Below, one piece after another: positions 4,380 to 62,969 of a stretch of 64,000 bases of DNA; position 1 is the first letter of the stretch, and every line of letters starts with the position of its first letter. The stretch lies in the NCBI RefSeq assembly GCF_040253635.1, contig NZ_JBEJGX010000003.1, positions 6,845,501 to 6,909,500 on the forward strand. Reading direction: 5' to 3'. The notes below the pieces were generated by a model. It saw only the letters and a list, made by a program, of their open reading frames with translations, was not told the origin of the DNA and made no database searches. The translations under genes were made by a program, and so were the position numbers. The DNA comes from Streptomyces sp. Edi2 (lineage in GTDB: Bacteria; Actinomycetota; Actinomycetes; Streptomycetales; Streptomycetaceae).

Positions 4380-4426
4380 GACAGGGGCGGCGTGCCGGCC
4401 CGTCTCAGATACGTCAATCAGACGCT

Positions 4427-4470
4427 CGTAAGCCCGGCCACCCCGATAGGGGCGGCCGGGCTTACGACTT
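4427..4470. terminator. Strong bidirectional terminator hairpin
   Basis: A perfect 13-bp stem (CGTAAGCCCGGCC at 4427-4439 with its complement at 4454-4466) is extended by CCCC/GGGG around the loop and followed by a short T run. It lies between a rightward gene ending at 4379 and a leftward gene ending at 4586, so it probably stops the rightward trio. Confidence 0.85.
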
Positions 4471-4540
4471 TTGGGGGTGCACTGGCCCGGGCCAGGTCAT
4501 GGGGGCGACGGCATGTCCGTCCAGGTGCCCTGATGGCGCG

Positions 4541-4574
4541 CCGGTGCCCCCGACCCCGCGGTCGGGGGCACCGG
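4541..4574. terminator. Second perfect hairpin, likely terminator of the lipoprotein gene
   Basis: Arms CCGGTGCCCCCGAC (4541-4554) and GTCGGGGGCACCGG (4561-4574) are exact complements around a 6-base loop. It starts 11 bases past the stop of the leftward lipoprotein gene. There is no T run on the plus side; GC-rich stem terminators without one are common in Streptomyces. Confidence 0.65.
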
Positions 4575-4585
4575 CATACGGCGTG

Positions 4586-13406: not shown

Positions 13407-13421
13407 TCAGGAGCGTGCGCC

Positions 13422-14279: not shown

Positions 14280-14296
14280 CGTTCCCTTCGCGGCGG

Positions 14297-14345
14297 TGTG
14301 AACGATCACGTAATTCCCCGGGCCCGGCGTCACGTAATTCCCCAG
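14297..14345. repeat. Left end of the IS21 element with two inner binding motifs
   Basis: The terminal inverted repeat begins TGTGAACG. Two copies of TCACGTAATTCCCC (near 14306 and 14329) follow, as expected for transposase binding sites. Confidence 0.85.
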
Positions 14346-14364
14346 GTCCTGACCTCGTCCATGT

Positions 14365-46092: not shown

Positions 46093-47117
46093 CAGCGCAC
46101 CCCGTTCGCCAGCGACTTCAAGGTGGCGCGGGCGCGTTCGGTGACCTCGGGATCACGGACACGGACACCCTGTACCAGATTGTCGACAGCATCTATCGCG
46201 GCCAGGGCCGGCAGCACCCTTCGCTCCGGACCCGTCAGCTCACGCCCATATCCGCTGAAAAACATTCGCCGAAGCCGCGGAGATTGCACCCACGGTCCGA
46301 AAGCCAGCTGCACGAAATCATCGACGGCCACCGCAGGCCGCGCCTGCCCGAAAGCGAGCAGAGCAGCGCACCCGCTGGGCCCATCCCATAAAAAGTTGAG
46401 TTCCCGCGCGTCACCATGGACGAATGCCGTAGGGCACGCCTCCAGCTGGGGCAGCTCCCTGACCAGGCCAAGCACCATCTTCTGCTCGGCATGCGAGAGG
46501 AGGGCACCGGCCGCAGCTACGCCCTGCCCCGCGAATGCCGTCCGTGCACGCACCTCTGCCAGCACATCCACCGAGGCGCGGGGGGCGACCAGCGTGTCAT
46601 GAAGCTCACGCAGCAGGTAGCCCGCTTGGCGGTGCACCCGGATGAGGTCGTTCATATCGAGCACGGCTGGTGCCACCGTCTCACCGGGCACTGCGGTCAG
46701 GAGCATCGCCAGCTCGCCGGGATTAGCCGCTTGGAGCCGTGGAGCGCGGCCGGGACCGAGAGCAGGTACCGCGAATCTGTAAGCGTGGACTTCGCGGTCA
46801 TAGGAGGCTTTCGTCGACGCAATCTTCAGGAAGAACCGGGTGCCGTCCGCACAGGTCAGCTCCCACACCTTGGAGTTCGCGCGGCCCTGTGAGGCGTCCA
46901 GCACGCCCGTGATGGCGCCGAGCACACACGAGGCCCAATCGAGCACGCCGCCCGGAATGCTCATCTGCCGCTCGCTGGCGCAATTCCCAGTCGTGTCGCC
47001 CATCTCAGCGCAGACAGGCCGGCTGGCGCTCCTATCCACATCTGTGCGTGCGTGATCGACCTGCACTTTTGGCGCGTGGCACGGGTATCCGTTCGGGTTG
47101 CCCTGGAGGCGACTCAT
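46089..47117 (-). CDS. APH-like phosphotransferase, probably inactive at the metal site
   Basis: A 342-residue protein. ATG 47117 is chosen because GAGGAA lies 6 bases upstream; shorter starts exist at 47003 and 46964. KVWELTCADGTRFFLKIAS has the ATP-binding Lys, GYLLRELHDTLVA a helix, and FVHGDARELNFLWDGPSG the catalytic loop (HGDxxxxN). The following metal motif, usually DFE/DFG, reads LLAFGQARPAVAVDDF: the first Asp is Ala. The protein may bind but not transfer phosphate, or use another residue. It is coupled to the glycosyltransferase (GTGA). Confidence 0.75.
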   Translation of the reverse strand: MSRLQGNPNGYPCHAPKVQVDHARTDVDRSASRPVCAEMGDTTGNCASERQMSIPGGVLDWASCVLGAITGVLDASQGRANSKVWELTCADGTRFFLKIASTKASYDREVHAYRFAVPALGPGRAPRLQAANPGELAMLLTAVPGETVAPAVLDMNDLIRVHRQAGYLLRELHDTLVAPRASVDVLAEVRARTAFAGQGVAAAGALLSHAEQKMVLGLVRELPQLEACPTAFVHGDARELNFLWDGPSGCAALLAFGQARPAVAVDDFVQLAFGPWVQSPRLRRMFFSGYGRELTGPERRVLPALAAIDAVDNLVQGVRVRDPEVTERARATLKSLANGVRW

Positions 47118-47162
47118 GAAGATTCCTCGAAACATCAGATTGAACGGCAGTGAACGGAGCGT

Positions 47163-48795: not shown

Positions 48796-50034
48796 TCACG
48801 TTGTGGTAAAGCCAGCCCAACTACCGAACGCCGAGAGCTCGTTGGAGGGGTGCGCATCCTGACGCAGAAGAGCTGCGACGGTCTCGCGAACGGACGGGTG
48901 GAAGCGTGTGTGGTTGGGGGCAACCTTGCGGGCACGCTTGAGGGCATCGAAGGCACCAGCACGGTCGCCCACGCCGAGCTTCGCGGAGGCCACGTCGATG
49001 AAGTGGTGGCTCGACCGCTCGCCCACCGTGGTCGACGGAGGAGCCCATTCTCCACCAGCCACTGGGGCCCACTCGGTCAGTCGTGCCAACGCTTGCTCGG
49101 TGTCACCCAGGTCGATCATGGAGTGGACCTCGTGGATGCGAATGTTCGTTGGACCAAACGACATCTCGTAGGCGAGGGAGTCGCGGTTGCCAGCCATTCT
49201 GGCCACGTCTTCCGCCTCCCGCAGATACGTGTCCGCACGTCCCGGATTGTTCTCGCGAGCTTCCAGCACGGCCAGCTTCAGCAGCAGTGCACCGTCGACC
49301 GCGAGAGCGTCGTTCGTGAAGGAACGCTCCGGCTGGAGTCGTTCAAGCTCATCTCGCAAGGTCAGCAGCTTGCGCCGAGCCGATGAATACGCGCCCTGCC
49401 GCAGCATCGCGCCGGCCACCAAGTAGCCGGATGTGATCTGCATCAGCGGATCGCCGGAGTGCTGTGCAGCCCAACGGACCCGCTCTAGCGCGGTGTTGGA
49501 AAGATCGTGATGTCCCATCTTGTGGGCCAGCGAATTCACGGCACGGTAGGCACGGGCGAGATGCAAGAAAGCCTGCGCCCGGTCACCGTTACGGCCCCCC
49601 AGAGCTACGTGGGTGAGTTCCGTGACAACCGGTGGGAGCAGTGGGCCCATCGGTGCGTAGCGGGCGTCGCGCCGCAAGGCCGCCACCTGATCGACCTCGG
49701 AAGCCAGTACCGCGAGTGGGCGCGGCGCAGCCTCGACGTCATCGGGTGTGTCATAGCAAAGCATGATCCGTCGCAGCTCGGGGATCACCGCGTGAACGCC
49801 ATCTTCGGCCTCCGGATCGCCGTAGTACGGCTGCCCTGTAAGGACCTCAGTCCCGAAGCGCAGTGCTTTGGACAGCGCCAGGACCAGCGATGGCGGCGCC
49901 TTTCGCGCCCCGGATTCCAACTTCTGGATGTAGCTCGGCGAGACAGAGGCTTTCTGCGCCAGCTGAGCCGTGGACAGCTTCCGCGTCCTGCGGGCGACGC
50001 GGAGGCGGTCGCCCAGCATGAGGTTTTCATTCAT
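48796..50034 (-). CDS. XRE/TPR transcriptional regulator
   Basis: A 412-residue protein from ATG 50034. The N-terminal HTH is clear: LGDRLRVARRTRKLSTAQLA then QKASVSPSYIQKLESGARKA. TPR-like repeats make up the rest: QAFLHLARAYRAVNSLAHKM, SNTALERVRWAAQHSGDPLM, LLLKLAVLEARENNPGRADT and HFIDVASAKLGVGDRAGAFD. It is divergent from the peptide-modification operon, with the palindrome at 50305 between them. It is the likely local regulator of that operon. Confidence 0.85.
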   Translation of the reverse strand: MNENLMLGDRLRVARRTRKLSTAQLAQKASVSPSYIQKLESGARKAPPSLVLALSKALRFGTEVLTGQPYYGDPEAEDGVHAVIPELRRIMLCYDTPDDVEAAPRPLAVLASEVDQVAALRRDARYAPMGPLLPPVVTELTHVALGGRNGDRAQAFLHLARAYRAVNSLAHKMGHHDLSNTALERVRWAAQHSGDPLMQITSGYLVAGAMLRQGAYSSARRKLLTLRDELERLQPERSFTNDALAVDGALLLKLAVLEARENNPGRADTYLREAEDVARMAGNRDSLAYEMSFGPTNIRIHEVHSMIDLGDTEQALARLTEWAPVAGGEWAPPSTTVGERSSHHFIDVASAKLGVGDRAGAFDALKRARKVAPNHTRFHPSVRETVAALLRQDAHPSNELSAFGSWAGFTTT

Positions 50035-50630
50035 CGGTAGATCGGTCCCTTCGCGATGAGGCGCACTCGCTTCAGAGTACGGACATTCCAGTTCCGCGCG
50101 ACTGCCGTCGCCAACTGTTAACGGGGCTGGTGGCACTGGATGGCTAGACCAAGATCGCCTGGTGGGGCTGACTCTTCCCTACTTGGTGATCCCACGCCTT
50201 GCGGGGCGATTGAGAAATGGCACTTATACCTGCAATCGCGACATCATTTGGCGCCGGCGAGGGGCGCCCGGGGCCGGCCGTCAAGGGTCACCGCACGAAA
50301 AAGTGCGGACAATTTGTCCGCGAACGCCGATCACGCTGTGGAAGTATCTGCTTGCACTCGGTGCCGCACCGCCGTCGGCGCCAGCGAGAAGAGGCGATGC
50401 AAGCCCGCCACGGACGCACACACCTGCACCGCCCCATCTCACCGATTCCGCAAGCTAGTTCGACGATTTTCGCGCTGTCGTGACGCCTGGTCACCCGGCC
50501 TAGACTCGAGGTCGTTTGCCCGGCGTCGGGCGTGCGCCACCAGGGGTGCACGCCGCTTCACGCCCTGGCCTCGGCCGAGGGCACCGCCGGGTGGGCGCCC
50601 GGTTCCGATGAATGAATGAGGGGTGTTCCC
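50035..50630. other. Divergent control region, 596 bases
   Basis: Between the XRE/TPR regulator and the Nudix gene that leads the operon. No gene is supported. The perfect palindrome (50305-50321) and nested hairpin (50291-50308) are its main features. A-rich stretches near 50295-50302 could be promoter elements. Confidence 0.6.
50291..50321. promoter_or_regulatory. Nested palindromes, candidate XRE operator
   Basis: GCGGACAATTTGTCCGC (50305-50321) has perfect 8-bp arms. Overlapping it, CCGCACGAAAAAGTGCGG (50291-50308) forms a 6-bp hairpin. It lies about 270 bases from the XRE start and 310 from the operon start, a good place for shared control. Confidence 0.5.
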
Positions 50631-51065
50631 GTGCCCGAGAAGGTCACCAAGGACAAGGTGCTGTGCTACGTCGTGCGCGACGGAAAGCTGCTGGTATTCC
50701 GGCACACCGAATACAGCTACGAAGAGGTCGGCATCCAGGTCCCGGCCGGCAGCATCCGTGAGGGCGAGACGCCGGATGCGGCGGCCCTGCGGGAGGCCCG
50801 CGAAGAGACCGGCCTGAAGGACTTCAAGATCGTGCGGAAGCTCGGCGAGGCCGAGTACGACATCAGCCCGTACCGGTTCGAACTCCAGCGCCGTCACGTC
50901 TTCCACCTGGAGCTGACTGAGCCCACTCCAGAGCGGTGGATGAGCCAGGAGGACCACGACGGGGAGCAGGAGCCCACGCACTTCGAGTGCTTCTGGATTC
51001 CGCTGGAAGCCGCCCACATCCTCCAGTCCGGCCAGGGCGCCCTCCTGGGACGCCTGTACGACTGA
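50631..51065 (+). CDS. Nudix hydrolase
   Basis: A 144-residue protein. GTG 50631 is favoured by GAGGGG 7 bases upstream; ATG 50616 is the alternative. The box is AGSIREGETPDAAALREARE then ETGL, a full GX5EX7REUXEEXGU. KVLCYVVRDGKLLVFRHTEY and FELQRRHVFHLELTEPTPER are typical flanks. It leads the peptide-modification operon, 33 bases before the radical SAM gene. Its role there is unclear: it may clean up nucleotide by-products. Confidence 0.88.
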   Translation: MPEKVTKDKVLCYVVRDGKLLVFRHTEYSYEEVGIQVPAGSIREGETPDAAALREAREETGLKDFKIVRKLGEAEYDISPYRFELQRRHVFHLELTEPTPERWMSQEDHDGEQEPTHFECFWIPLEAAHILQSGQGALLGRLYD

Positions 51066-51098
51066 TCCCCGTCCGGTCACGGCCCCGGGAGGCAGCCG

Positions 51099-52994
51099 AT
51101 GCACCGCACCACCGAACAGCACGAGCATGATCCGATCGCCCAGATGTACCGCGGCTTGGACGCCGAGGATACCGACAGCGCCGTATCAGTGATCTTGAAG
51201 TTACGCGGTGAGACCTGCGACATCGACTGCCTGTACTGCTATGAGAAGCGCAAGGAGGCCCCGGGAGGAGCCCGGATCGACGCCGGCCAAGTTCGTCGGC
51301 TCGCCGAGCTCTTCCAGGGGCGTTCGCTCGCCGTGGAGCTTCACGGCGGTGAACCGCTGACCGCCGGCCGCGACCACGTCGCCGAGGTCCTGCGCGAACT
51401 GGCCAGCCAGCCCAGAGTGGTCCGTGTCTCGATGCAGACCAACGGCGTGCTGCTGGACGAACAGTGGCTGGACCTCTTCGATGCCCTGTACCCGGGCCTT
51501 GAGATCGGCATCTCTCTGGACGGGGACGCGGCGGGGAACGCCTGGCGGGTCGGCTACGACGGCCAGCCGGTCTACCCGCGCGTCGCCGCCGCGCTGCGGC
51601 TGCTGGCCAATCGCGGCCGGAAGACCGGAGTCATCGCCGCGGTCACCCCGGCCGTGCTCGGACGCGCCGAAGCGGTCCTGGACCACGTCGCCGGCTTCGA
51701 GGCGGTCAACGCCGTCAGCTTCGTGCCCTGCTTCGACACCTCCGTCCAGCGTCCCACCGCCACTCCAGGGCTGCGCATTCCGGTAAGCCGACAACTCCAG
51801 CGCACTGCCGTGCGCGGCCATGCTGGTCCCGCGTGGGCGATCAGTCCAGCCGAGTATGCCGAGTTCGTGCTTGCCGCCACGATCCGGTGGATCAGCGCCG
51901 GGTATTTCACCCGCCTGAAGCTGGAACCCGCTGTGTCCACCATTCGGCGGCTGCGCGGGCTAGACACCGGCTTCTGCCACTTCTCCAACCTCAAGTGCGA
52001 CCATGTCTTCACGTTCTACCCGGACGGCCGCCTCGGCAGCTGCGACGAACTGCCCTGGCCCCAGGCCGTGATCGGCCGCCTGGACCAGGTGCCCGACCAG
52101 GACGCGGTCATTGCCGGGCAGCGGCGGCTGCCCCTGCTGAACCAGGGCAGGGGTCTGATGGAGCGGTGCACTACCTGCGCCTACCGGTCCGCGTGCGGCG
52201 GCGGCTGTGTGGCCACTCGCTGGCGCCATGACCAAGCTGGGTGCCAGGACGCCTACTGCGACTACCGGATGCGGATGATTGACGGCATCGCCGCGATCCT
52301 CGCCCAACCCGCCCACCCGGAGGGCGCCTGGTGCCGCACCATGCGTTGGCGCCCCCGTACCCCGAACAGCATGCGCGACGTTGCTGCCTTCCTCGCCCGC
52401 TGGGACCGCGCCAACGCGGCCAGGACGCCTGTGCGGCTGCACACCAGTGCGCACGGCAACATCAACACTGTGGGCTTGCCCGGCATCCACGAGGCCGACG
52501 ACCTCGACCCGGCCCACCCCCAGTGGCGCGAGGCGATCGAGCCCGGGGTGCGGCCTCTGATCGACACCGTCACCCGGATGTGGGGACTGATCACGTACGA
52601 CAGCTGCCAGGGCCACGCCTACACCGGCCTTGACCTGGAGCCCGCCGAACGCAGAGTCGGCATCCTCCCGCGCAACCGAGCCGAGTACGCCCAAACTGCC
52701 GCGGCCCTGTGCCGCGCGGTCACCGCGGCCGCCCCTACCTTGCCCGCCGCGGTGCAGGTGACCGTCGGGCGCGCGGAGCTGACCTGCGAGGCCACGAACC
52801 GGACCACCCACGTGCTCGACCTGGCACTGCGGCTGGCCCCAGGCCATGACTGGCCGGCGTACTTCGACGCCGTGGACGCGGCCACCGAGGCTGTCGCGGA
52901 CGCGCTGCGCGGCGAGGCCCCTTCAGCTGGCCGCTGCTGTTCCTGCCCAGTGCCGCAACCCACCGCTCCCTCCTCCGAGGAGATATCGGCGTGA
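51099..52994 (+). CDS. Radical SAM/SPASM peptide-modification-type enzyme
   Basis: A 631-residue protein from ATG 51099 with GGGAGG upstream. SVILKLRGETCDIDCLYCYE contains the CxxxCxxC cluster (Cys40, 44, 47). VELHGGEPL and VRVSMQTNGVLLDEQWLDLF follow, then RTG-like AWRVGYDGQPVYPRVAAALR. The SPASM part carries FSNLKCDHVFTFYPDGRLGS and CTTCAYRSACGGGCVATRWR plus GCQDAYCDYRMR, enough Cys for auxiliary clusters. From about residue 415 an extra 215-residue domain follows (IEPGVRPLIDTVTRMWGLIT, YDSCQGHAYTG). Such enzymes cross-link or otherwise change side chains of RiPP precursors. The 54-residue peptide at 55988 is the proposed substrate. Confidence 0.85.
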   Translation: MHRTTEQHEHDPIAQMYRGLDAEDTDSAVSVILKLRGETCDIDCLYCYEKRKEAPGGARIDAGQVRRLAELFQGRSLAVELHGGEPLTAGRDHVAEVLRELASQPRVVRVSMQTNGVLLDEQWLDLFDALYPGLEIGISLDGDAAGNAWRVGYDGQPVYPRVAAALRLLANRGRKTGVIAAVTPAVLGRAEAVLDHVAGFEAVNAVSFVPCFDTSVQRPTATPGLRIPVSRQLQRTAVRGHAGPAWAISPAEYAEFVLAATIRWISAGYFTRLKLEPAVSTIRRLRGLDTGFCHFSNLKCDHVFTFYPDGRLGSCDELPWPQAVIGRLDQVPDQDAVIAGQRRLPLLNQGRGLMERCTTCAYRSACGGGCVATRWRHDQAGCQDAYCDYRMRMIDGIAAILAQPAHPEGAWCRTMRWRPRTPNSMRDVAAFLARWDRANAARTPVRLHTSAHGNINTVGLPGIHEADDLDPAHPQWREAIEPGVRPLIDTVTRMWGLITYDSCQGHAYTGLDLEPAERRVGILPRNRAEYAQTAAALCRAVTAAAPTLPAAVQVTVGRAELTCEATNRTTHVLDLALRLAPGHDWPAYFDAVDAATEAVADALRGEAPSAGRCCSCPVPQPTAPSSEEISA

Positions 52995-53614
52995 GCAGTG
53001 CCTCGGACACGCTGACGATCCACCAGTTACTTGGGCGGATCGTGTACTTCCACGCCCTGTTCATCGAACCCGAGCTTCGCCCCAGCATGCCGCCCGCGCC
53101 GGGTCCGGCGTGCTGCAACCACGCCACCGCCCCGGGGCAACTCTCCGTCGGTGAGCTGCTGCCGGACTCCGCCTGGAGGGCCCTCGTCGAGGTGGCGGCC
53201 ACCCTCCCGGCACATCACCGGCCGTGCCCGAAGGCCACAGGCGCCTGCTGCGCCACGTGCCACGTCGCCTCTGCAGCCACAGCGGTCGCGGCCGGATGGG
53301 CACAGACCGAGTGCCACAGCTACCGGCAGGCCAATCCAACCGAAACTTTCCTGCGCGACTGTGGCCACGCGGCGGCAGCCCGTCTCGGGCGGGTCTTCGC
53401 CACCCAACACGCAGCCCACTGCCCGGCGTTGGATCGGCTCACAGTGCCGGAGGCGCTCCCCGATACCGAGGAGCTGCCGCTGACCGGCGAACTGCTGGCT
53501 TTGTGGGCCGAACCGACAGCCACCACCCGCCACCCCGTGGCGAGTTGGCTCAACCACTGCACCGGCCTGGACGACGTCTGCCGAGTGCTCGAAACGAGAA
53601 GGACCGACCCGTGA
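52991..53614 (+). CDS. Cys/His-rich hypothetical protein of the operon
   Basis: A 207-residue protein from GTG 52991, overlapping the radical SAM stop (GTGA). It has TIHQLLGRIVYFHALFIEPE, PACCNHATAPGQL, CPKATGACCATCHVASAAT and DCGHAAAARLGRVFA, with a C-terminal LNHCTGLDDVCRVLE. About twelve Cys/His residues in pairs suggest metal or cluster binding. I do not recognise a family. Coupling on both sides (GTGA with 53611) makes it an integral part of the system, perhaps a partner or carrier protein for the maturase. Confidence 0.6.
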   Translation: MSSASDTLTIHQLLGRIVYFHALFIEPELRPSMPPAPGPACCNHATAPGQLSVGELLPDSAWRALVEVAATLPAHHRPCPKATGACCATCHVASAATAVAAGWAQTECHSYRQANPTETFLRDCGHAAAARLGRVFATQHAAHCPALDRLTVPEALPDTEELPLTGELLALWAEPTATTRHPVASWLNHCTGLDDVCRVLETRRTDP

Positions 53615-54342
53615 TCCACATCGCCGAGACCGTCGCGGTCGGCAGCATCGAGGGATTCCTTGGCTCCGAGGAGCAGACCCGGCTCGCCACCGCGATGGAT
53701 AACTTCCTCTCCTGTGAAGCACGCGCCCGCTTCGGTGCAGAACGGACCACCTCCATCCACGAGATCCCCGGCCACTCCCACAAGCAGGCGATGACGGTGT
53801 ACGAGCCAGCCGGGCGGGTGGAGATACCGCAGATCCCGGCCGAGGCCGAACAGGTTCTGCAGCACGCCTTCAACCGTGCCCGCACCGCCCTGTCCCGCGT
53901 CATGCCGTCAATCACCGCATGCCGACCGTGGACGTACGTCGAGTACGGTCCCGGCCAGCACATCACCGGCCACCTCGACGGCATCTCCCCCGACCCGATC
54001 GCCTGGCCGAGACAGATTGCCGGAATCAGCGTCGTGATCAGCGAAGCGGAGGCCGGCGGCGCCTTCTACGTCGAGAGCTCCTCCAGCAACCGCCTGTGGG
54101 ACACCCGTCTCGACCAGGCCGCGGACCACGGCTACGCGGACGGCATGTGGCTAGCCCACGACGGGGCCGACCATTCCGCCGACTGGTTCAGGCAGATGCC
54201 CCGCACCCGTTGGAGCGTGAGTGCTGCCCCAGGCACCGCCCTACTGTACGGATCCCAGCTCACCCACGGCACCGAGCCAGTGGCCCGCGGCCGGGTCGCG
54301 AAGTTCATCAGCTGGCTGATCGCCGAGAAGCACGAGGGGTGA
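53611..54342 (+). CDS. 2OG-Fe(II) oxygenase, prolyl-hydroxylase-like
   Basis: A 243-residue protein from GTG 53611, overlapping the previous stop. The metal triad is visible: HxD at His121/Asp123 (GQHITGHLDGISP) and His219 (GSQLTHGTEPV), with Arg228 (GR) for 2-oxoglutarate. ISVVISEAEAGGAFYVESS and APGTALLYGSQLTH complete the double-stranded beta-helix. It should hydroxylate or otherwise oxidise a side chain. It is coupled with the kinase-like gene that follows (GTGA). With the radical SAM and HExxH genes it gives three possible peptide oxidation steps. Confidence 0.82.
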   Translation: MIHIAETVAVGSIEGFLGSEEQTRLATAMDNFLSCEARARFGAERTTSIHEIPGHSHKQAMTVYEPAGRVEIPQIPAEAEQVLQHAFNRARTALSRVMPSITACRPWTYVEYGPGQHITGHLDGISPDPIAWPRQIAGISVVISEAEAGGAFYVESSSSNRLWDTRLDQAADHGYADGMWLAHDGADHSADWFRQMPRTRWSVSAAPGTALLYGSQLTHGTEPVARGRVAKFISWLIAEKHEG

Positions 54343-54983
54343 GCCGCATGCTGCTGGCCCTGGAGGGGATCGCCGGAGCCGGGAAGAGCACGCTGCGTGA
54401 CCGGCTCTTGTCCGCGGCCATGTCCGAGGGCATCCGCCTCGGACACATCGGCCAGTTCGCCTGGCTGTCGCTCGAGGCCACCCGCGCCCTCACCGGTCTG
54501 CGGGGCGGGCGACCCGCGCCGACCGGCGAGCAGGCGCTGTCCGCCGCCCGTCGTGACCTGGAACTCCACGCCTGCCACAACCTCGCCCCCGCCCTGTCCC
54601 TGGGCCCGGTGGTCGCCGACCGGCTCACCCTGTCGACCGCCTGCCTGCTCTCCCTGCTGCACGACCGTCCCGTCGCCGACTACGTCCGGAATTTGGCCGA
54701 GGTGACGCCGGCGCGGGCAGAGCTGACCGTCCTGCTGACCACCGAGCCCGAGCTGTGCCATGCCCGGCTCTCCCAACGGGCCACCTCGCGCCGCTTCGGT
54801 GAGGATCCGCCGACCGCCGCCCGGCTCGCCGACCTGTACGAGCAGGCCGCCACCGCCTGGACCGAGACGACCGGGCTGCCCGTGCTGCGGCACCCGTGCA
54901 CCGCCGAGCCCGACCTCGACCTGCTGACCGCCGCCTGCCTGGACCAGCTGCGTGCAGCCGCCCCGCGTACGGCGCGAAGTTAG
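54339..54983 (+). CDS. Thymidylate-kinase-like P-loop protein
   Basis: A 214-residue protein from GTG 54339 (ATG 54348 also possible). LLALEGIAGAGKSTLRDRLL is the Walker A region (GIAGAGKST). LGPVVADRLTLSTACLLSLL contains the DR that ends the lid helix, and LTVLLTTEPELCHARLSQRA gives the strand and Arg-rich lid. It resembles dTMP or deoxynucleoside kinases. A similar gene lies in the 7-deazaguanine cluster (25634). The role in a peptide system is unknown; a nucleotide co-substrate is conceivable. Confidence 0.75.
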   Translation: MSRMLLALEGIAGAGKSTLRDRLLSAAMSEGIRLGHIGQFAWLSLEATRALTGLRGGRPAPTGEQALSAARRDLELHACHNLAPALSLGPVVADRLTLSTACLLSLLHDRPVADYVRNLAEVTPARAELTVLLTTEPELCHARLSQRATSRRFGEDPPTAARLADLYEQAATAWTETTGLPVLRHPCTAEPDLDLLTAACLDQLRAAAPRTARS

Positions 54984-54995
54984 AGGAGCCGCCCC

Positions 54996-55877
54996 ATGCA
55001 CCTGCACCCCCTTCACCCCGCCGTCTGGGTCCTTGATCAGCTCCGTGACACCGGGTGGCAAGCGCACGATCTGCTCTCCTTCACCCGCGCCAGCACCCTG
55101 GTGCTCGTCAGCCGCGGCGGCGCGTCCCCGGTGGTCCTCAAGGCCGGCTTCGGCAGCAACCACGTCCTGGCCGAGCTGGACGAGGACAGCCGCAAAGCCG
55201 CCTACGGCTTCTACTGGTACGCGGAAATGACCGAGGCCGAACGTGCCCTGACCCGCGAGGACTTCCGCCACGAGATCGCCGTCATCCGCGCCGCCGCAGG
55301 GGCCGAGCACATAGTGCCGCTGCTGGAGGGGGGCAGCACCGACCGGTTCGACTGGTACACCATGCCGTTCTGTACTGGCGGCAACTTCCGGCCCTTCCTG
55401 ACAGCGGCCGATGGCCACGACCAGGTGGCGGCCGGGCTGGGCATCTTGGCTGACGTCGCCGAGGGACTACGGGCCCTGCACGAGCGCGGCATCGTGCACC
55501 GCGACGTCTACCAGGAGAACATCCTCATCCACGACGGCCGCGGGCTGATCACCGACCTCGGCGCAGCCCGCCTCACCCACACCCCCCGCGGGCCGGCTGC
55601 CCGCGGCCCCGAAGTCCACTGGCCCCCGGAGTACGCGACCTCCTACGACCGTGCCACCCCGGCCGCCGACGCCTTCAGCCTTGCAGTCCTGATCTACCGC
55701 TTCCTCTGCGCGGACATCCCCCGGCATGGCCACTCGCGACTCGGTACTGCCCCCACCGGCCTCCAACCGGTGATCTCCGCGGCCCTGGCTCCCGCTCCAC
55801 AGCACCGACCCGCGATGAGCGAACTCCGCGACGCCCTGTCCCAGGCAGCCGCTTCGCTGACCAAGCCCGGCCACTGA
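54996..55877 (+). CDS. Serine/threonine-kinase-like protein
   Basis: A 293-residue protein. VLVSRGGASPVVLKAGFGSN holds the ATP-binding Lys region. The catalytic loop is HRDVYQENILIHD (His168, Arg169, Asp170, Asn175), and the metal motif is DLGAAR (Asp187-Gly189, Leu replacing Phe). GPEVHWPPEYATSYDRATPA replaces the APE region. All key residues are present, so kinase activity is plausible. The substrate could be the Ser/Thr-rich peptide encoded next. A lanthipeptide-like lyase and cyclase are absent. Confidence 0.82.
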   Translation: MHLHPLHPAVWVLDQLRDTGWQAHDLLSFTRASTLVLVSRGGASPVVLKAGFGSNHVLAELDEDSRKAAYGFYWYAEMTEAERALTREDFRHEIAVIRAAAGAEHIVPLLEGGSTDRFDWYTMPFCTGGNFRPFLTAADGHDQVAAGLGILADVAEGLRALHERGIVHRDVYQENILIHDGRGLITDLGAARLTHTPRGPAARGPEVHWPPEYATSYDRATPAADAFSLAVLIYRFLCADIPRHGHSRLGTAPTGLQPVISAALAPAPQHRPAMSELRDALSQAAASLTKPGH

Positions 55878-55987
55878 ACCACGCCCTCGGAGGGATACCG
55901 CAGTGAACACCGCACGTTCGCCGCCTCACCCCCGGCTCCAAAGGTGCACGGCCCCAACACCCCTTTCAGGAAAGGACGAGCACACTC

Positions 55988-56152
55988 ATGAACGACCGGA
56001 TCAGCAACTTCCTCGCCGCCGTGGACGACCTCCGCAGCGACGACAAGACCGTACGTACCACTGCCCACACCTCCAGCGTCTCCGCCGAGGGCTGGCCTAC
56101 GACCGAGGTCCCGGCAACCACCGACGCTGCCACGGGCACTGACGCCGCCTGA
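55988..56152 (+). CDS. 54-residue putative precursor peptide
   Basis: ATG 55988 to TGA 56152, too short for normal gene calling, with AAGGA 11 bases upstream. GC3 is about 87 percent, the host coding value. The N-terminus MNDRISNFLAAVDDLRSDDK looks like an amphipathic leader. The C-terminal 34 residues hold eleven Thr, four Ser, three Pro, one His (27) and a single Trp (36): AHTSSVSAEGWPTTEVPATT then DAATGTDAA. It lies between the kinase and the HExxH gene and is the proposed substrate. An overlapping frame (55904-56142) has a good GGAGGG but poor GC3. Confidence 0.65.
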   Translation: MNDRISNFLAAVDDLRSDDKTVRTTAHTSSVSAEGWPTTEVPATTDAATGTDAA

Positions 56153-56254
56153 CCGCCGCGCACCACACCGGCGGCAGGCCGCCGGTGAGCATCTCCTGGG
56201 GTCGGACCACCACGGTCCGGCCCCAGGCCCCGCCCCGACGGAAGGACCCGACTC

Positions 56255-57178
56255 GTGGACGCGCCCACCACCGCCTTCTCGTATGCCCCCATCCAGAGCC
56301 TGCACCGCGACCGCACCCGGCGGATCCACGCCGTCGTCCAGCCCAACTCCCTGCATCCGGCCGACACCGCCGCGGCCTCGGTGACGGCCGGAGCCGACTA
56401 CTGCCTGGCCCACCATGTCCTCGAAGGCGCCGAGGCGGCCGCCCGCGCCCGCGACACCACCACCTTCGACTGGTACGGCGCCCACCCCGACGCGAACACG
56501 GCGACGCTGTCCACCTCCACGGCCGTCGGGCCGCGCATCGTGATCAACCCCGACCTGGACCGCCTGCCCCGTTCGGCGTTTTCCGAGACCCCCTACTACG
56601 TGCTGGGCCCCGACACCACCGCCGCGCGGAAGGACCTGCGCGAGTTGGCCACCGCCGCATACAACGCCGGTGCCCAAACGGGATTCGGCCCCCTGCTCAC
56701 CGCCCATGCCGTCGTCTTGGTCCTGCTCCGGCGCAAGCAGCTCGGCGACACACTCGACAGCTGGACCATCACCCGCCTGCCCGGCACTGTCTTCAGCGAT
56801 CACGTTGACGAGCCCATCGTCCTGGCCCGCGACCTCGTCCACGAATCCGGCCACAACTGGCTTAACGACGCCCTCGCCGCCACCGCCAGCAAGATCAGTG
56901 ACGAAGCGCAGTTCTACTCACCGTGGAAGAGGACGATGCGCCCCGCCTTCGGCTTCCTCCACGCCTGTTGGGCCTTCCCCCTCACCATGATCTACACCGC
57001 CCGCGTCCTGTCCCAGACCACCGGCGCCCTGCATCAGTTCCTGACCGCCTACCTGGACCAGCAGCGCGGCCTGCTCGCCCCGACCGCCGACGACCACGCC
57101 CGCGTGCTCGCCCTCATCCCCGACAACGGCCTACGCCAGCGTCTGCACGCCGTCCATCACGAGGCCCTCAGCCTGTGA
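56255..57178 (+). CDS. HExxH-type putative peptide beta-hydroxylase
   Basis: A 307-residue protein from GTG 56255 with GGAAGGA 9 bases upstream. VLARDLVHESGHNWLNDALA carries HExxH at His196-His200, then FYSPWKRTMRPAFGFLHACW and AFPLTMIYTARVL. This order (HE..H..L, YSPW....RP..G.LH..YAF) is that of the TIGR04267 family, now thought to be 2-oxoglutarate-dependent peptide beta-hydroxylases and usually found with radical SAM maturases. The first 130 residues (LHPADTAAASVTAGADYCLA) are family-like. It follows the peptide gene by 102 bases. Confidence 0.75.
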   Translation: MDAPTTAFSYAPIQSLHRDRTRRIHAVVQPNSLHPADTAAASVTAGADYCLAHHVLEGAEAAARARDTTTFDWYGAHPDANTATLSTSTAVGPRIVINPDLDRLPRSAFSETPYYVLGPDTTAARKDLRELATAAYNAGAQTGFGPLLTAHAVVLVLLRRKQLGDTLDSWTITRLPGTVFSDHVDEPIVLARDLVHESGHNWLNDALAATASKISDEAQFYSPWKRTMRPAFGFLHACWAFPLTMIYTARVLSQTTGALHQFLTAYLDQQRGLLAPTADDHARVLALIPDNGLRQRLHAVHHEALSL

Positions 57179-58533
57179 ACCACACCGACGCCCCCACCAC
57201 TTCACCGGCTACCAGCCCCGCTGACCGAGCACACGAGCCTGGCCTCATCCTGCGCATCCACCCCGCCGGCCAACGCCCGGTACAGGCGCACATCGGAGCG
57301 GCCAGCCTCGAACTCAGCGCGCCCATCGGGGAGAACACCGCCTTCAACGTCGGCTCTGTCGCCAAGCAGATCACCGCGTACCTGTGTGTGCACGCAGCGC
57401 GCAACGGTCTCCTACACCTCGGCCAGCCGGTCGGCGACATCCTGCCGCGCTTCCGCATCGCAGGCGTAACCGTCGGCGACCTCATCCAGCACCGGGGCGG
57501 GATCCGCGACGCCGAATCCCTGCTCTCACTGGCCGGCTTCCGCGACCTCGACCACTACACCGCCGACGACCTGCTGCAACTCGCCTACCGCCAGCAACAC
57601 CGCGCCGTCGAGCCTGGCAGCTTCCTATACAGCAACACTGGCTACCTCCTCCTCGGCGAGGTGCTCAAGCACGTCCACGGTGCCGCCGGGCTCCAAGAAG
57701 TCGCCGACGCACAGGTCTTCACCCCGCTCGGGATGCCCTCTGCCCGCTTCAAGAGCGATCCGCGCGAGGTCATCCCCGGCGCCGCCTCGACCTACCGCCC
57801 TACCGTCGACGGCTGGCTCCACCAGCAGGCCCCGGTCACCTTGCCCGGCCCCGGCTCGCTCTGGTGCACCGCCACCGACCTGGACCGCTGGCTCGACCAC
57901 CTGTGGCACGAGTGGCAGGCCCGTGCCGACGTTGCGCTCCCGTTTGGGCAGCACATCAGCTACGAGCCCAGCGACCACCACCCCTTCACCTACGGAGCTG
58001 GCCTGTACGCCGATCCCCGCCCCAAGCGCACCGCCGTCTTCCACTACGGCCACGAACAGGGGTTCTCCTCCACCGCCCACCTCACCAGCTCAGGGCTCCG
58101 CGTCATTTGCATGTCCAACCACAGCGGAATCGCTGCCGACCACGTCGTCGCCACCACCCTCGCCAACCTCAGCCACCACCCCGAAGCCGACCTGGGCGAA
58201 GTCCTGCGCCGATCGCTTCGACAGCGCCCCAAGCCACCGCCCGCACCGGTGAACCGCCCCAATCTCGACGCGCCGCACATGCCGCTTGGCACGTACGCCT
58301 GCGAGGACGTGCCCGGCACCGTCCGCCTGACCCGCAGCGAGGGGGCGCTGTACCTATGGCGTCGGGGAACCCGCGACTATCTCACCCGCAGCGGGCCCGC
58401 GACGTACACCGCGGACGGCTACACGCTCACGCTCACCACCTCGCCCGCAGACAAAAGCGTGCCCTCGCCGGACGGCTTCGTTCTCGATCTCGACCGTGCA
58501 CCCGGACTGCACTTCCGACGACACCCGGACTGA
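57175..58533 (+). CDS. Beta-lactamase-like serine hydrolase
   Basis: A 452-residue protein from GTG 57175, overlapping the HExxH stop (GTGA). AFNVGSVAKQITAYLCVHAA holds SxxK (Ser61, Lys64). LYSNTGYLLLGEVLKHVHG holds YSN (Tyr152-Asn154), the second catalytic motif. HYGHEQGFSSTAHLTSSG takes the KTG-like place. A C-terminal lipocalin-like domain (LGTYACEDVPGTVRLTRSEG) follows. It has no signal peptide and should be cytoplasmic. It may remove the leader or release the final peptide, or have an esterase role. Confidence 0.8.
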   Translation: MNHTDAPTTSPATSPADRAHEPGLILRIHPAGQRPVQAHIGAASLELSAPIGENTAFNVGSVAKQITAYLCVHAARNGLLHLGQPVGDILPRFRIAGVTVGDLIQHRGGIRDAESLLSLAGFRDLDHYTADDLLQLAYRQQHRAVEPGSFLYSNTGYLLLGEVLKHVHGAAGLQEVADAQVFTPLGMPSARFKSDPREVIPGAASTYRPTVDGWLHQQAPVTLPGPGSLWCTATDLDRWLDHLWHEWQARADVALPFGQHISYEPSDHHPFTYGAGLYADPRPKRTAVFHYGHEQGFSSTAHLTSSGLRVICMSNHSGIAADHVVATTLANLSHHPEADLGEVLRRSLRQRPKPPPAPVNRPNLDAPHMPLGTYACEDVPGTVRLTRSEGALYLWRRGTRDYLTRSGPATYTADGYTLTLTTSPADKSVPSPDGFVLDLDRAPGLHFRRHPD

Positions 58534-58724
58534 CCAACTCCCAACCACACCGCTCTACAACAAGCCGCTTCGCCACCATCACGCCACTGTCTTCCGCGCC
58601 CCGTCGCCAGGCGAGGCATCACCCCGTAGCGGCACGGCGGTCGGACTTCGGCACTCCAGCCTGACTGCCCCGTGGTTCCGGCGCGCAGCTACTACACAGT
58701 TCGCAAGTGAAAAAGATGGGTCAC

Positions 58725-59597
58725 ATGAGCCACCAGAACACTTCCCGCCCCGCAGACGCTTCCGGCACCTTCGCCCTCGGCGGGGACCTGACCATCAACC
58801 GCCTCGGCTATGGCGCCATGCAACTCACCGGCCCCGGAGTGTGGGGCGAGCCGAAAGATCCGGCCGAAGCGATCCGGGTGCTGCGCCGTGCCGTCGAGCT
58901 GGGCATCAACTTCATTGACACGGCCGACTCATACGGCCCCTTCGTCAGCGAGCGACTCATCCGCGAGGCCCTGCACCCCTACGCCGACGACCTGCTCATC
59001 GCTACGAAGGGCGGGCTGACCCGCCCTGGCCCCGACGACTGGCGCCCCGTAGGCCGGCCCGAGTACCTGCGCCAGCAGATCGAGCTGAGCCTGCGCCACC
59101 TCGGCGTCGAACGCATCGACCTCTACCAGCTGCACCGCATCGACGAGCAGGTGCCGCTCGCCGACCAGCTGGGCGAGCTCGTGCTGCTCCAGCAGGAAGG
59201 CAAAGTCCGCCACATCGGCGTCTCCGAAGTGACCGTCCAACAGCTAAAGGAGGCCCGTACGCTCGCGGACATCGCCGCCGTGCAGAACCTCTACAACCTC
59301 GCCAACCGCAGCGCCGAAGACGTCCTTAAGTACGCCGAGCGCGAGAACATCGCCTTCATTCCATGGTTCCCCATGGCCACCGGCGAGCTCGCCCGCTCCG
59401 GTGGCGCGCTCGACGCTGCTGCCAAACAGCACGGCGCCAGCCCCTCCCAGCTCGCCCTCGCCTGGCTACTGCACCGTTCTCCGGTCATGCTCCCCATCCC
59501 CGGCACCTCCCAGACGGCCCACCTGGAGGAAAACACTCAGGCGGCCCGCATCACCCTCACCGACGACGAGTGCGACGCCCTGGCCGCCGCAGTCTGA
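58725..59597 (+). CDS. Aldo/keto reductase
   Basis: A 290-residue protein from ATG 58725; GTG 58707 is the alternative. The tetrad is seen in NFIDTADSYGPFVSERLIRE (Asp, Tyr), DLLIATKGGLTRP (Lys) and IDLYQLHRIDEQVP (His). FIPWFPMATGELARSGGALD and LLHRSPVMLPIPGTSQTAHL give NADPH binding. This is a normal AKR. The gap of about 190 bases from the serine hydrolase means it may be a separate unit. The operon could use it for carbonyl reduction after peptide oxidation, but that is inference. Confidence 0.88.
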   Translation: MSHQNTSRPADASGTFALGGDLTINRLGYGAMQLTGPGVWGEPKDPAEAIRVLRRAVELGINFIDTADSYGPFVSERLIREALHPYADDLLIATKGGLTRPGPDDWRPVGRPEYLRQQIELSLRHLGVERIDLYQLHRIDEQVPLADQLGELVLLQQEGKVRHIGVSEVTVQQLKEARTLADIAAVQNLYNLANRSAEDVLKYAERENIAFIPWFPMATGELARSGGALDAAAKQHGASPSQLALAWLLHRSPVMLPIPGTSQTAHLEENTQAARITLTDDECDALAAAV

Positions 59598-60321: not shown

Positions 60322-61677
60322 GTGGTGAGCAGAGCAGCGAGTTCCCGGGCGCAACTGAGCCGAGTGACGTTGGTCGGCGAGCGACGCCGGGCCGATGTCG
60401 TTCTGCTCTCCGATACGCCGATAGGGCAGCTGATCCCGGATGTGCTGCCGTTGCTGGGCGATCGACCCGCATCGCGGCCGGTAGCTCGGCAGTTGATGAC
60501 GTCCGACGGCTCTGTACTGCCGTACGACAGCACGCTGGCGTCGGCAGGGGTAGCCGACGGCGCCGTGCTCCGGCTGGTGACGACGCATTCTGCGCCGCCG
60601 GCTCCCGTTGTGCACGACGTCACCGATCAGGTAGCTGATGACCTCGATCTGCGGTCTTGGCGCTGGCGTCCGGCTGCGCGCCGGGCCATTGCGGGTGTGG
60701 CGACTGTCGCCTTCGCGGTGATCGCCGCGCTGCTCGCCCGTCGTGAGTTCCCGCTTGGCACCCTGGTGGGTGCTCTGTCAGCTGTATCGCCTGTGCTCCT
60801 GGCGGCCGGTGCGCTTGTCGCGAAGATCGGACGGGGAAACCGGGGACTGGCGACGGCGCTCCTGCTCGCCGCTGGCGGGCTTGGTGTTCTCACGGCGTGG
60901 ACGGCTGCCGATGCGTTCGGCTGGCCGGGTACCGCGCGGCTCGCTGCCGTGGCGGGTGCGCTGGTCGTGACGCTTGTGTTCCTTGGTTACTTCTCTCCGC
61001 TGGGCAAGGGAGGGCTGGTTGGTGCGGTGACCACGGCCGCGATCGCCATTGTGTGGGAGGCGGTTGCCGCTGTTCAGGGTGATCCGGCCCGGCTCGGTGC
61101 CGTGATGGCTGTCTTCTCTTTGGTGGTGCTCGGTGTGCTGCCGCGGCTTGCGCTGATGGCGTCGGGGCTCACCGCGCTCGATGACCGCCGCTCGGGCGGT
61201 GTCTCTGTCAGCCGTCACCAGGTAGGGACTGCGCTGGCGGCGACGCACCGCGGCCTTGCCCTCTCGACGATCGCTACTGCGTTTTCGGCAGCCTCCGCCG
61301 GGTGGCTGCTTACGCTGGCCGGGAAGCCGACCGTATGGACCGTGCTGCTGGCAGCCCTCGTTGTTGTGGTGCTGGTGTCGAGGGCGCGAGCGTTCCCGCT
61401 GGTCGTTGAGGTTGTTGCGCTCTTCGCTGCTGCGTCGTGCCTGGTGGTGCGCCTGGTGACGTGGTGGATGGAGCATGCGGGGGGTGTCGGGCCGCTGGCT
61501 GTGCTGTGCGTGGCTGCGGTGCTGCCGTTGGTCGTTTTGGCGGTGCAGGTGCCCGAGCATGTGCAGGTGCGGCTGCGGCGTATGGGCGATCTGGTCGAGT
61601 CCGTTGGCATGGTGGGGCTCTTCCCGCTCGCCTTTGGTGTGTTCGGTGTGTATGGGCAGCTGCTCAACCAGTTCTGA
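60322..61677 (+). CDS. eccD: Type VII secretion membrane protein EccD
   Basis: A 451-residue protein from GTG 60322 with a weak site. The N-terminal 90 residues have the EccD ubiquitin-like domain (LSRVTLVGERRRADVVLLSD, LPYDSTLASAGVADGAVLRL). About eleven helices follow (AIAGVATVAFAVIAALLARR, VLLAAGALVAKIGRGNRGLA, LGVLTAWTAADAFGWPG, AVLCVAAVLPLVVLAVQVPE). EccD forms the vestibule of the ESX channel. It leads the rightward T7SS block with the ATPase and eccC. Confidence 0.9.
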   Translation: MVSRAASSRAQLSRVTLVGERRRADVVLLSDTPIGQLIPDVLPLLGDRPASRPVARQLMTSDGSVLPYDSTLASAGVADGAVLRLVTTHSAPPAPVVHDVTDQVADDLDLRSWRWRPAARRAIAGVATVAFAVIAALLARREFPLGTLVGALSAVSPVLLAAGALVAKIGRGNRGLATALLLAAGGLGVLTAWTAADAFGWPGTARLAAVAGALVVTLVFLGYFSPLGKGGLVGAVTTAAIAIVWEAVAAVQGDPARLGAVMAVFSLVVLGVLPRLALMASGLTALDDRRSGGVSVSRHQVGTALAATHRGLALSTIATAFSAASAGWLLTLAGKPTVWTVLLAALVVVVLVSRARAFPLVVEVVALFAAASCLVVRLVTWWMEHAGGVGPLAVLCVAAVLPLVVLAVQVPEHVQVRLRRMGDLVESVGMVGLFPLAFGVFGVYGQLLNQF

Positions 61678-61733
61678 CAGTTCTGAGTCGATGTGCTGGC
61701 GCTCGGGAGGGGCGGCACAGGGGGGGAACAGGC

Positions 61734-62969
61734 ATGCCGAGCGGAGACGGCTGGCAGGGTGATGTTTTGCGTGACCTGAGGGGCGGCGTCGAGCAGGGTG
61801 CACAAAGCCCCGGCGGACAGGCGTACCGCGCTTCCGCGCCGGGTCCGGGCCTGCATGCGCAGAGCGCCCAGGCGCAGGACGTCACCCCTCGGGGTGATGC
61901 ACCCCGGCAGGCTGCCTACCCGTACCAGGGGCAGGAGCAGCAGGCCAGCCCTCAGGACGGATGGCCGCAGCGGGCCGCGCACCAGGAACAGAAGGAGCAC
62001 GCTCCGGTGGCGCACACTCCTGGCCCTCACCCCCCAAGCTCCCCTGGCTCCCGCCCCGTGGTGGACAAGGGCCTGGCCGGCGCGGTACGCCTCAAGCCGC
62101 AGCACGGCGAATCCTTCGCCGCGCGTGCCGCACGCGCACTGCGCCGTACGCTCTCGTCGTCGGCCGCGCGCGAGGTCGCCGAGATTACCCGCACGGCACA
62201 GGTGCTCCAGCAGCCGGTGACGACCGGCCGGCAGATCGCCGTCACCTCGATCCGAGGTGGATCCGGCAAGTCGACCGTCGCCGCGCTGCTCGGCACCACG
62301 TACGCGCACTACCGACAGGACCCGCTCCTTGTCCTGGAGGCCGATCCGGCACTTGGCTCGCTGCCGCTGCGGCTCGGCGCCGAGGCTCTGCGCTGGACGA
62401 CCAGTGATATCGCGGACATCGTCCAGCCGAACATGTCGCTGCTCGACGTCACCGGCTATCTCGTCCAGCTTCCCAACAATGCCTGGCTGCTGCCGGCGAG
62501 CCAGGGTCAGATCGGTGTGATGCTGGATAGCCGGGCGTACGAGCGGGTCGTGGTGGCGCTGCGTCGCTACTTCGGTGTGATGGTCATCGACTGTGAGACG
62601 TTGCCCGCCGAGGTCGGCCGGGTCGCGCTCGCTGCCGCGCATGGCCGTGTTCTGACCACACCTGCCACGCCGGAGGGCATCCGCAGTACGTATTCGGTGC
62701 TGCAGTGGATGCAGGGGCTGCCGCGGCATGTGATGGCCAGCACGGTTGTCGTGCTCACCGAATTGGTGCCCCATTCAGGGCTCGATCTGGACGAGGCCGT
62801 CCAGATGCTCAAGTCCACCGGGGTAAGCGTTCAGGTTCTGCCGTATGACCGGCACTTGGCGGCCGGCGGCCGGCTCCATACCGAACTGCTGGCTCACCCG
62901 ACCAGGGAAGCCGTCGCTCGCCTTGCCGCGGACGTGTTCCAGCTCTCCCTCTCCCAGCAGCGTCACTGA
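61734..62969 (+). CDS. MinD/ParA-like ATPase of the T7SS locus
   Basis: A 411-residue protein from ATG 61734 with GGGGGGAA upstream. A Gln/Pro/Gly-rich first 130 residues precede an ATPase: Walker A TSIRGGSGKSTVAALLGTTY (deviant, R for K), LLVLEADPALGSLPLRL and GVMVIDCETLPAEVGRVALA. It has the MinD/ParA fold often encoded in Streptomyces ESX loci. It may position or energise the secretion apparatus. Located between eccD and eccC in one operon. Confidence 0.85.
   Translation: MPSGDGWQGDVLRDLRGGVEQGAQSPGGQAYRASAPGPGLHAQSAQAQDVTPRGDAPRQAAYPYQGQEQQASPQDGWPQRAAHQEQKEHAPVAHTPGPHPPSSPGSRPVVDKGLAGAVRLKPQHGESFAARAARALRRTLSSSAAREVAEITRTAQVLQQPVTTGRQIAVTSIRGGSGKSTVAALLGTTYAHYRQDPLLVLEADPALGSLPLRLGAEALRWTTSDIADIVQPNMSLLDVTGYLVQLPNNAWLLPASQGQIGVMLDSRAYERVVVALRRYFGVMVIDCETLPAEVGRVALAAAHGRVLTTPATPEGIRSTYSVLQWMQGLPRHVMASTVVVLTELVPHSGLDLDEAVQMLKSTGVSVQVLPYDRHLAAGGRLHTELLAHPTREAVARLAADVFQLSLSQQRH

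Follow-up and report, generated by a model that had tools for sequence, protein, structure and literature searches.

A conserved operon joining radical SAM, aKG-HExxH and kinase-like proteins around a near-invariant short peptide in Streptomyces: a probable RiPP system

In this work we describe a nine-gene operon from Streptomyces sp. Edi2, a strain with a 9.8 Mb genome. The operon lies in a window of 64,000 nucleotides, by which we mean the whole stretch of DNA analysed (contig NZ_JBEJGX010000003.1, positions 6,845,501 to 6,909,500). On balance, we believe that it directs the making of one near-invariant ribosomally synthesised and post-translationally modified peptide (RiPP) from the core VRTTAHTSSVSAEGW of a precursor of about 50 residues, a reading that is probable rather than secure. 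What is said below of the product and its chemistry we infer from the genes. In order, the operon encodes a Nudix hydrolase, a radical S-adenosylmethionine (SAM)/SPASM protein, a Cys/His-rich protein, a 2-oxoglutarate (2OG) oxygenase, a P-loop kinase, a protein kinase, a 54-residue peptide, an HExxH enzyme and an S12 serine hydrolase. The original prediction for this DNA had named nine genes on one strand, and an open-frame check of the window confirmed all nine as consecutive plus-strand frames (50616-58533). It had also taken most junctions to be GTGA overlaps. This needs correcting, as four of the eight are such overlaps (Table 1) and the remaining four are gaps of 33, 12, 110 and 102 nucleotides, with the peptide gene between the last two.

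The original prediction would have been refuted had this neighbourhood proved not to be conserved in other genomes, but conserved it is. A scan of genome contigs with the radical SAM protein returned five loci. Four of these are complete and contain the nine genes in the window's order, while the fifth (L014, Micromonospora) breaks off within the radical SAM gene and is not counted as evaluable. When 391 genomes of the order were searched with the Cys/His protein, nine had matches, four of them near full length, including the source genome itself. The three near-full-length matches from other genomes (L015, L016 and L017) lie in loci with all nine genes, with the identity of the Cys/His protein falling to 40%, and an operon on a linear plasmid of Streptomyces clavifer (L042) has eight of the nine, without the S12 hydrolase. 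Gene order is retained in all nine evaluable loci of this kind (type I, the window included): the block that runs from the Nudix gene through the radical SAM, Cys/His, 2OG, P-loop, kinase and peptide genes to the HExxH gene is kept in 9/9, and the S12 hydrolase in eight (the window, L010-L013 and L015-L017). The short peptide directly precedes the HExxH gene in all nine; whether the two are always neighbours was a check set out with the original prediction. The operon is found on two linear plasmids and on the Streptomyces olivoreticuli chromosome.

RiPP cores usually differ between strains. Here, the core is near letter-identical across actinobacterial families; it is unchanged in L017, which comes from another family of the order and is the most distant of the type I loci, with the seven proteins other than the Nudix protein and the peptide at 40-61% identity. 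A core that stays near fixed despite diverging enzymes implies a product with a single conserved job, and its constancy speaks for a conserved target or a role in signalling over a diversifying antibiotic. The whole operon is smaller than 8 kb and suited to heterologous expression; both its chemistry and its biological role are directly testable.

The precursor peptide and its core

Sequence comparisons indicate that the peptide frame is real, conserved and under selection at the protein level. A single-sequence search found 58 homologues and a profile search, run to E<=1, gave 307 matches, the best 120 being listed. Our peptide statistics cover the 125 homologues retrieved in all, with positions numbered back from Trp(0) and none discarded for missing Gly-Trp; these were gathered by shared words and from the best 120 of the 307 profile matches, which biases them toward conserved cores. 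The core follows the pattern V-R-x-T-x-H-T-S-S-V-S-x-x-G-W. Among the peptides retrieved, F(-28), R(-20), D(-17), R(-13), T(-11), T(-8), S(-7), S(-6), S(-4), G(-1) and W(0) are identical in 125/125, H(-9) and V(-5) are kept in 124, and position -2 is acidic in 121. The tail that follows Trp(0) is 5-21 residues long and variable in sequence, its last residue being Ala in 74 of the 125. The window's precursor ends in ...TDAATGTDAA and contains no Cys.

The eight comparison loci were found through their enzymes, not through the peptide, and are free of the shared-word bias; all carry TAHTSSVSAEGW. Across the window and these loci the ratio of nonsynonymous to synonymous differences (pN/pS) comes to 0.032 for the core and 0.714 for the leader, at similar pS (0.213 and 0.233). 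With the near-fixed core and the placement beside the HExxH gene, this goes against a second refuting condition of the original prediction, a peptide frame that is not conserved. A purine-rich stretch resembling a ribosome-binding site lies ahead of its start codon. The motif R.T.H[TS][SA] occurs 23 times in 1,251,464 six-frame residues (the window plus fetched loci of at least 5,000 bases), where uniform residue use would give about 1.6, and 22 of the 23 are such precursors.

Sources among the matches listed include Streptomyces, Kitasatospora, Micromonospora, Nocardiopsis, Streptacidiphilus, Kineosporia and Actinospica, as well as metagenome-assembled Pseudonocardiaceae and Egibacteraceae. 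The general description of a RiPP, a conserved short precursor gene with conserved core and leader beside modifying enzymes, applies to the operon. No NCBIfam model matched the precursor at E<=0.1.

Table 1. Features of the operon in the window, with positions counted from its first letter
Feature	Positions	Strand	Remarks
Nudix hydrolase	50616..51065	+	PF00293 63.3 bits
Radical SAM/SPASM peptide maturase, 631 residues	51099..52994	+	PF04055 40.1 bits; TIGR04085 35.2 bits (cut-off 27)
Radical SAM/CysHis overlap	52991-52994	+	GTGA
Cys/His-rich protein, 207 residues, mostly helical	52991..53614	+	family not recognised
CysHis/2OG overlap	53611-53614	+	GTGA
2OG-Fe(II) oxygenase-like protein, HxD...H...R	53611..54342	+	PF13640 18.8 bits, below cut-off 27
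2OG/P-loop overlap	54339-54342	+	GTGA
P-loop kinase-like, thymidylate-kinase-like protein	54339..54983	+	PF02223 28.2 bits (cut-off 27)
Ser/Thr protein-kinase-like protein	54996..55877	+	PF00069 70.2 bits
Precursor peptide, 54 residues	55988..56152	+	FLAAVDDLR in the leader, then the core VRTTAHTSSVSAEGW and a C-terminal tail that varies
Core, R(-13) to W(0)	56054..56095	+	part of precursor
aKG-HExxH-type peptide beta-hydroxylase	56255..57178	+	TIGR04267 53.8 bits (cut-off 40)
HExxH/hydrolase overlap	57175-57178	+	GTGA
S12-family serine hydrolase (beta-lactamase/DD-peptidase fold)	57175..58533	+	PF00144 113.5 bits

Operon proteins and other architectures

As judged from their sequences, the radical SAM/SPASM, HExxH, 2OG, kinase and P-loop enzymes have intact catalytic motifs. 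Residues are called invariant below when they are identical in eight aligned proteins per family, or in six for the P-loop protein, whose alignment omits the orthologues from L015 and L016 since their start had been set far upstream. The radical SAM protein has both marks of a radical SAM/SPASM maturase, the CxxxCxxC motif (C40/C44/C47, each Cys invariant) and a SPASM domain. Its nearest NCBIfam models are the sulfatase maturase, YhhB and FxsB models, all matched far below their cut-offs. A Pfam search with its C-terminal domain of about 230 residues gave no match. This domain is left without an assignment because the structure model, predicted from five sequences, is poor (predicted local distance difference test score, pLDDT, of 45). 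In the HExxH enzyme, H196, E197 and H200 are invariant, and the protein qualifies as a member of the aKG-HExxH family. The 2OG protein has invariant H121-x-D123, H219 and R228, which we take to be its metal-ligand and 2OG-binding residues; a PDB sequence search with it returned nothing of note.

The P-loop protein keeps GIAGAGKST and D94-R95 throughout its alignment, and it matches thymidylate kinases in the PDB (E 5e-4). Invariant K49, HRD168-170 and DLG187-189 are intact in the protein kinase, and we read them as protein-kinase motifs. The Nudix protein is the best conserved of the operon, with 81-96% identity over the alignment to seven orthologues; it has a complete Nudix box, and its best PDB match is a Nudix coenzyme A pyrophosphatase (E 3.6e-6). 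The S12 hydrolase has invariant S61xxK64 and Y152xN154, which we read as S12 motifs, and its PDB relatives are beta-lactamases, DD-peptidases, D-aminopeptidase and ClbP. It is accessory and missing from the S. clavifer plasmid operon. The Cys/His protein is a candidate partner or metal-binding protein. C42, H44, C79, C86, C87, C90, C144 and C190 are invariant in 61 aligned sequences. No Pfam domain was matched by the protein itself or by the 120 listed of its 182 homologues, its sole NCBIfam match is spurious (16.1 bits against a cut-off of 600), and a PDB search with its AlphaFold2 model (pLDDT 85) gave no convincing match.

We sampled 391 genomes of the order, 394 of the class and 396 of the phylum. 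The radical SAM profile matches 16 of the 391 order genomes (E<=1e-80), 15 of which have the peptide beside the HExxH gene. By gene content these 16 comprise four of type I, ten of a second architecture (L035 and L063-L071), the mixed locus L062 and L072. In the class sample, the peptide profile matches three genomes, exactly those with strong 2OG matches. Two further class genomes (G049 and G054) have distant 2OG paralogues only; these were rejected as operon members, the other operon profiles being unmatched in the fetched stretches (L040 was listed gene by gene). The 2OG profile found only the source genome among the 396 of the phylum, which argues against a wide spread outside the class.

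The second architecture (type II), which outnumbers type I by ten genomes to four among the 391 of the order, has the fixed gene order P-loop, phosphoenolpyruvate (PEP)-mutase-like, Nudix, TylF-like methyltransferase, 2-hydroxyacid dehydrogenase, nucleotidyltransferase-like, radical SAM, 2OG, peptide and HExxH. It keeps the peptide, radical SAM, HExxH and usually 2OG genes, has thymidylate kinase (TMPK)-like and Nudix genes of its own, and contains neither the protein kinase nor the Cys/His protein; on a Kitasatospora cathayae plasmid (NZ_CP115451, 79-86 kb) it is found without 2OG and TylF. PEP mutases usually have an EDK-type motif. The PEP-mutase-like proteins instead have EDSxYPKxNSF in all 11 loci of this architecture (L035, L043 and L063-L071), and the one that was scored reached 200.9 bits, below the PEP mutase cut-off of 319.55. 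A Pfam search with the nucleotidyltransferase-like protein of L035 gave no match. In L069 (G314), the match to radical SAM, that to HExxH and that to the dehydrogenase each fall on two separate open frames, reflecting a decaying copy or assembly errors. This architecture deserves a finding of its own.

A third, distant architecture (L036) in a distant family places the peptide first and has its Nudix domain fused to a protein kinase, and L062 has a mixed gene set with two peptides. Cores are VRTTAHTSNAATETW in L035, L063-L066, L068 and L069, with a single Ile replacing Thr in L067; VRLTAHTSSVSADAW in L070 and L071; VRFTMHSSREGADDW in Kitasatospora cathayae; IEATAHTSAVQAEVM in L036, outside R.T.H[TS][SA] as it has no Arg; and VRSTAHTSSVSADGW and PRTTAHTASVSAEGW in L062. 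Common to all architectures in which a precursor was found is T(-11)-x-H(-9)-[TS](-8)-[SA](-7), and the spacing from His to Trp is 9 wherever Trp is present. Each of the 22 peptide-bearing operons read (nine of type I, 11 of type II, L036 and L062) encodes a TMPK-like and a Nudix protein, those of other architectures being 26-46% identical to the window's. The peptide, radical SAM and HExxH genes are the core of the system, and the S12 hydrolase, Cys/His protein, protein kinase and 2OG genes are not universal.

In radical SAM and HExxH trees of 22 loci (L014 and L069 excluded), the architectures cluster when compared with shuffles, but not each as one clade, and L043, L017 and L062 are left unplaced. 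In the radical SAM tree, L036 and L072 stand together on the outside, each on a long branch. In L072 (G329), the related radical SAM protein (13410-14618, plus strand) has no C-terminal domain, and a stand-alone relative of that domain is encoded 8 kb away (4399-5154, minus strand). A minus-strand frame divergent from the L036 operon (393-2579) reads in translation like a peptidase-containing ABC transporter, and beside it, at about 2576-2700, a minus-strand frame ends in a short stretch whose leader is of the Gly-Gly type. From their translations, this pair is possibly another peptide system or its exporter.

Proposed pathway, known systems and rival readings

By sequence, the closest characterised enzymes are ChlB and ChlH, a fused radical SAM and aKG-HExxH pair from Chlorogloeopsis (PDB 9gm3 and 8s5f). 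The radical SAM protein finds the ChlB radical SAM domain (9gm3) as its best PDB sequence match (E 2.7e-19), and the same two enzyme families stand around one precursor in both systems. This likeness rests on the enzymes, with the best PDB match of the HExxH enzyme, ChlH (8s5f), a weak one (E 0.018; common stretch HExxH...SPW...RP.G.LHA). The two domains are fused in ChlB/ChlH, whereas they are separate genes in the window, which adds a canonical 2OG oxygenase, two kinase-like proteins, a Nudix protein, the Cys/His protein and an S12 hydrolase. ChlH is described as hydroxylating His and Asp after cyclophane formation (PMC12636437). Set against these targets, the window's core offers one His and the acidic position -2.

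Fxs precursors are defined by an FxSxx-COOH ending, and Phe-x-Ser gives the family its name. The window's peptide does not end in FxSxx and is without an NCBIfam match, so it is no Fxs precursor. The operon's radical SAM protein is related to FxsB (TIGR04269) at 89.7 bits, with TIGR04267 present in both systems, but falls far below the cut-off of 370 for an FxsB-type cyclophane maturase. With class III/IV lanthipeptide synthetases and other kinase-using RiPP pathways the operon shares a Ser/Thr-kinase domain whose catalytic residues are intact. The window's kinase, however, is stand-alone, with the kinase domain alone matched; LanL and LanKC scores were 35.4 and 23.5 bits against cut-offs of 650 and 575, and the precursor has no Cys to offer. 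In the pfl/pos, biphenomycin-like (BpmH) and nitrilobacillin (PesO) pathways an aKG-HExxH enzyme also acts on a short precursor (PMC12636437, PMC13060819), and there it is coupled with MNIO enzymes (PMC13060819; PMC12257519). In the window its partners are instead a radical SAM protein, a 2OG oxygenase and kinase-like proteins.

In a literature search falling short of most subscription journals, no paper described the system, the peptide strings were unmatched, and no account was found of radical SAM, HExxH and 2OG chemistry joined with kinase-like and Nudix proteins. The original prediction that no named RiPP class fits stands among the families tested. The chemistry has known relatives, the pairing of radical SAM with aKG-HExxH being shared with ChlB/ChlH and Fxs. 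The system appears to be a radical SAM and aKG-HExxH RiPP theme with added 2OG and kinase chemistry.

On this basis we propose the following pathway. The leader F-L-x-x-V-x-x-L-R would recruit the enzymes, and the ChlB/FxsB-like radical SAM protein would form a side-chain C-C cross-link, by analogy most likely a three-residue cyclophane from His(-9) (His-Thr-Ser, the counterpart of Phe-x-Ser) and/or one involving Trp(0). The aKG-HExxH enzyme could then beta-hydroxylate the cross-linked region, after the ChlH model, with a second hydroxylation added by the separate 2OG oxygenase. The protein kinase and the TMPK-like kinase may put phosphate on a core Ser/Thr or on an attached group, and the Nudix protein may remove pyrophosphate or a nucleotide; this phosphoryl step is suggested by the conservation of the kinase-like and Nudix genes and by the Nudix-kinase fusion. 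Finally, the variable tail and the leader would be cut off, perhaps with the help of the S12 hydrolase. A bolder version sees here a new RiPP class, whose fixed peptide product has a cross-link, two hydroxylations and a phosphate (or a nucleotide or phosphonate link) and serves actinobacteria as a conserved hormone or cofactor; this strikes us as rather unlikely. If it were true, the PEP-mutase-like, 2-hydroxyacid dehydrogenase and nucleotidyltransferase-like genes of the second architecture would serve to add a phospho-organic group to the T-x-H-T-S core that both have.

Several observations weigh against the reading of one product from a fixed core, in addition to the retrieval bias noted above. 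His(-9) is replaced by Asn in one of the 125 peptides (P0118), and Ser(-7) by Ala in one of the two L062 peptides. The L036 core has no Trp and its radical SAM protein no C-terminal domain, and L072 has related radical SAM and HExxH proteins, yet no recognisable precursor. The protein kinase profile is unmatched in the second architecture, so phosphorylation by this kinase is not a universal step. The assignment of residues, made by analogy, is the weakest part of the pathway, given Asn for His, Ala for Ser(-7) and the absence of Trp from L036.

Peptides can also be carriers for cofactors, as PqqA and MftA are for pyrroloquinoline quinone (PQQ) and mycofactocin. The peptide could similarly carry a small molecule or cofactor, with its invariant residues becoming a short excised fragment that is then acted on by the kinases, Nudix, nucleotidyltransferase and PEP-mutase-like enzymes. 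We hold this to be unlikely, though it is the strongest of the rivals. The unchanged core of L017 beside its diverged proteins, the TMPK-like and Nudix proteins in every peptide-bearing operon read, and the PEP-mutase-like, dehydrogenase and nucleotidyltransferase-like genes of the second architecture all agree with it. However, the selected stretch of 14-15 residues is longer than the two-residue fragment that is the source of PQQ, the low identity of the TMPK-like and Nudix proteins between architectures would also suit separate recruitment, and the nucleotidyltransferase-like assignment in L035 has no Pfam match behind it.

Somewhat less probable still is an ordinary Fxs/ChlB-type cyclophane RiPP, made by cross-linking and beta-hydroxylation alongside kinase, Nudix and P-loop genes that are mere regulatory or housekeeping neighbours. 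The presence of TIGR04267 and the nearest relatives of the radical SAM protein (ChlB in the PDB; the sulfatase-maturase, YhhB and FxsB models) speak for it, but the FxsB cut-off is missed and the precursor matches no NCBIfam model. Moreover, the kinase, P-loop and Nudix positions are kept in all nine type I loci, three junctions within the Nudix-to-kinase block overlap in the window, and L036 has a Nudix-kinase fusion. A module for defence or signalling, with the peptide as a phosphorylation or sensor substrate and no natural product, is very improbable: the kinase is similar to kinases of defence systems (MAD6 76.3 bits, PD-T4-6 74.1 bits), the radical SAM protein has a weak viperin match (31.5 bits) and two operons lie on linear plasmids, but protein kinases and radical SAM enzymes match many models through fold alone, the model names of radical SAM/SPASM and aKG-HExxH mark both as peptide-modifying families, and of the nine proteins only the Nudix protein (23.5 bits) matched a PADLOC model at E<=1e-5 besides the kinase and the radical SAM protein. 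A known anti-phage defence system was rejected on the same PADLOC results, which gave only generic kinase and weak radical SAM and Nudix matches.

Flanking genes and a second aKG-HExxH domain

An XRE/HTH protein (48796-50136, minus strand, PF13560) is encoded divergently from the operon, but we do not count it among the constant members of the system. In tblastn searches of L010-L017, an ortholog 85% identical stands at the same place in L013, none was matched in L010-L012, and L017 has a 34%-identical match about 4.7 kb from the operon; in L042, the position is taken by a protein annotated as HTH, with DUF397 next to it. An aldo/keto reductase (58707-59597) was rejected as part of the operon, with no match in L001-L018. 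Further upstream is an APH-family phosphotransferase-like gene (46089-47135, minus strand, PF01636). Downstream lies an EccD-like type VII secretion component with a YukD domain (60322-61677); the next frame (61437-62969) matches ParA/CbiA weakly and below cut-off, and we read the frames of 60322-62969 as the start of a WXG100 secretion locus. A second aKG-HExxH domain is present elsewhere in the same genome (L019; G000:C2:129719-130207, 64.8 bits).

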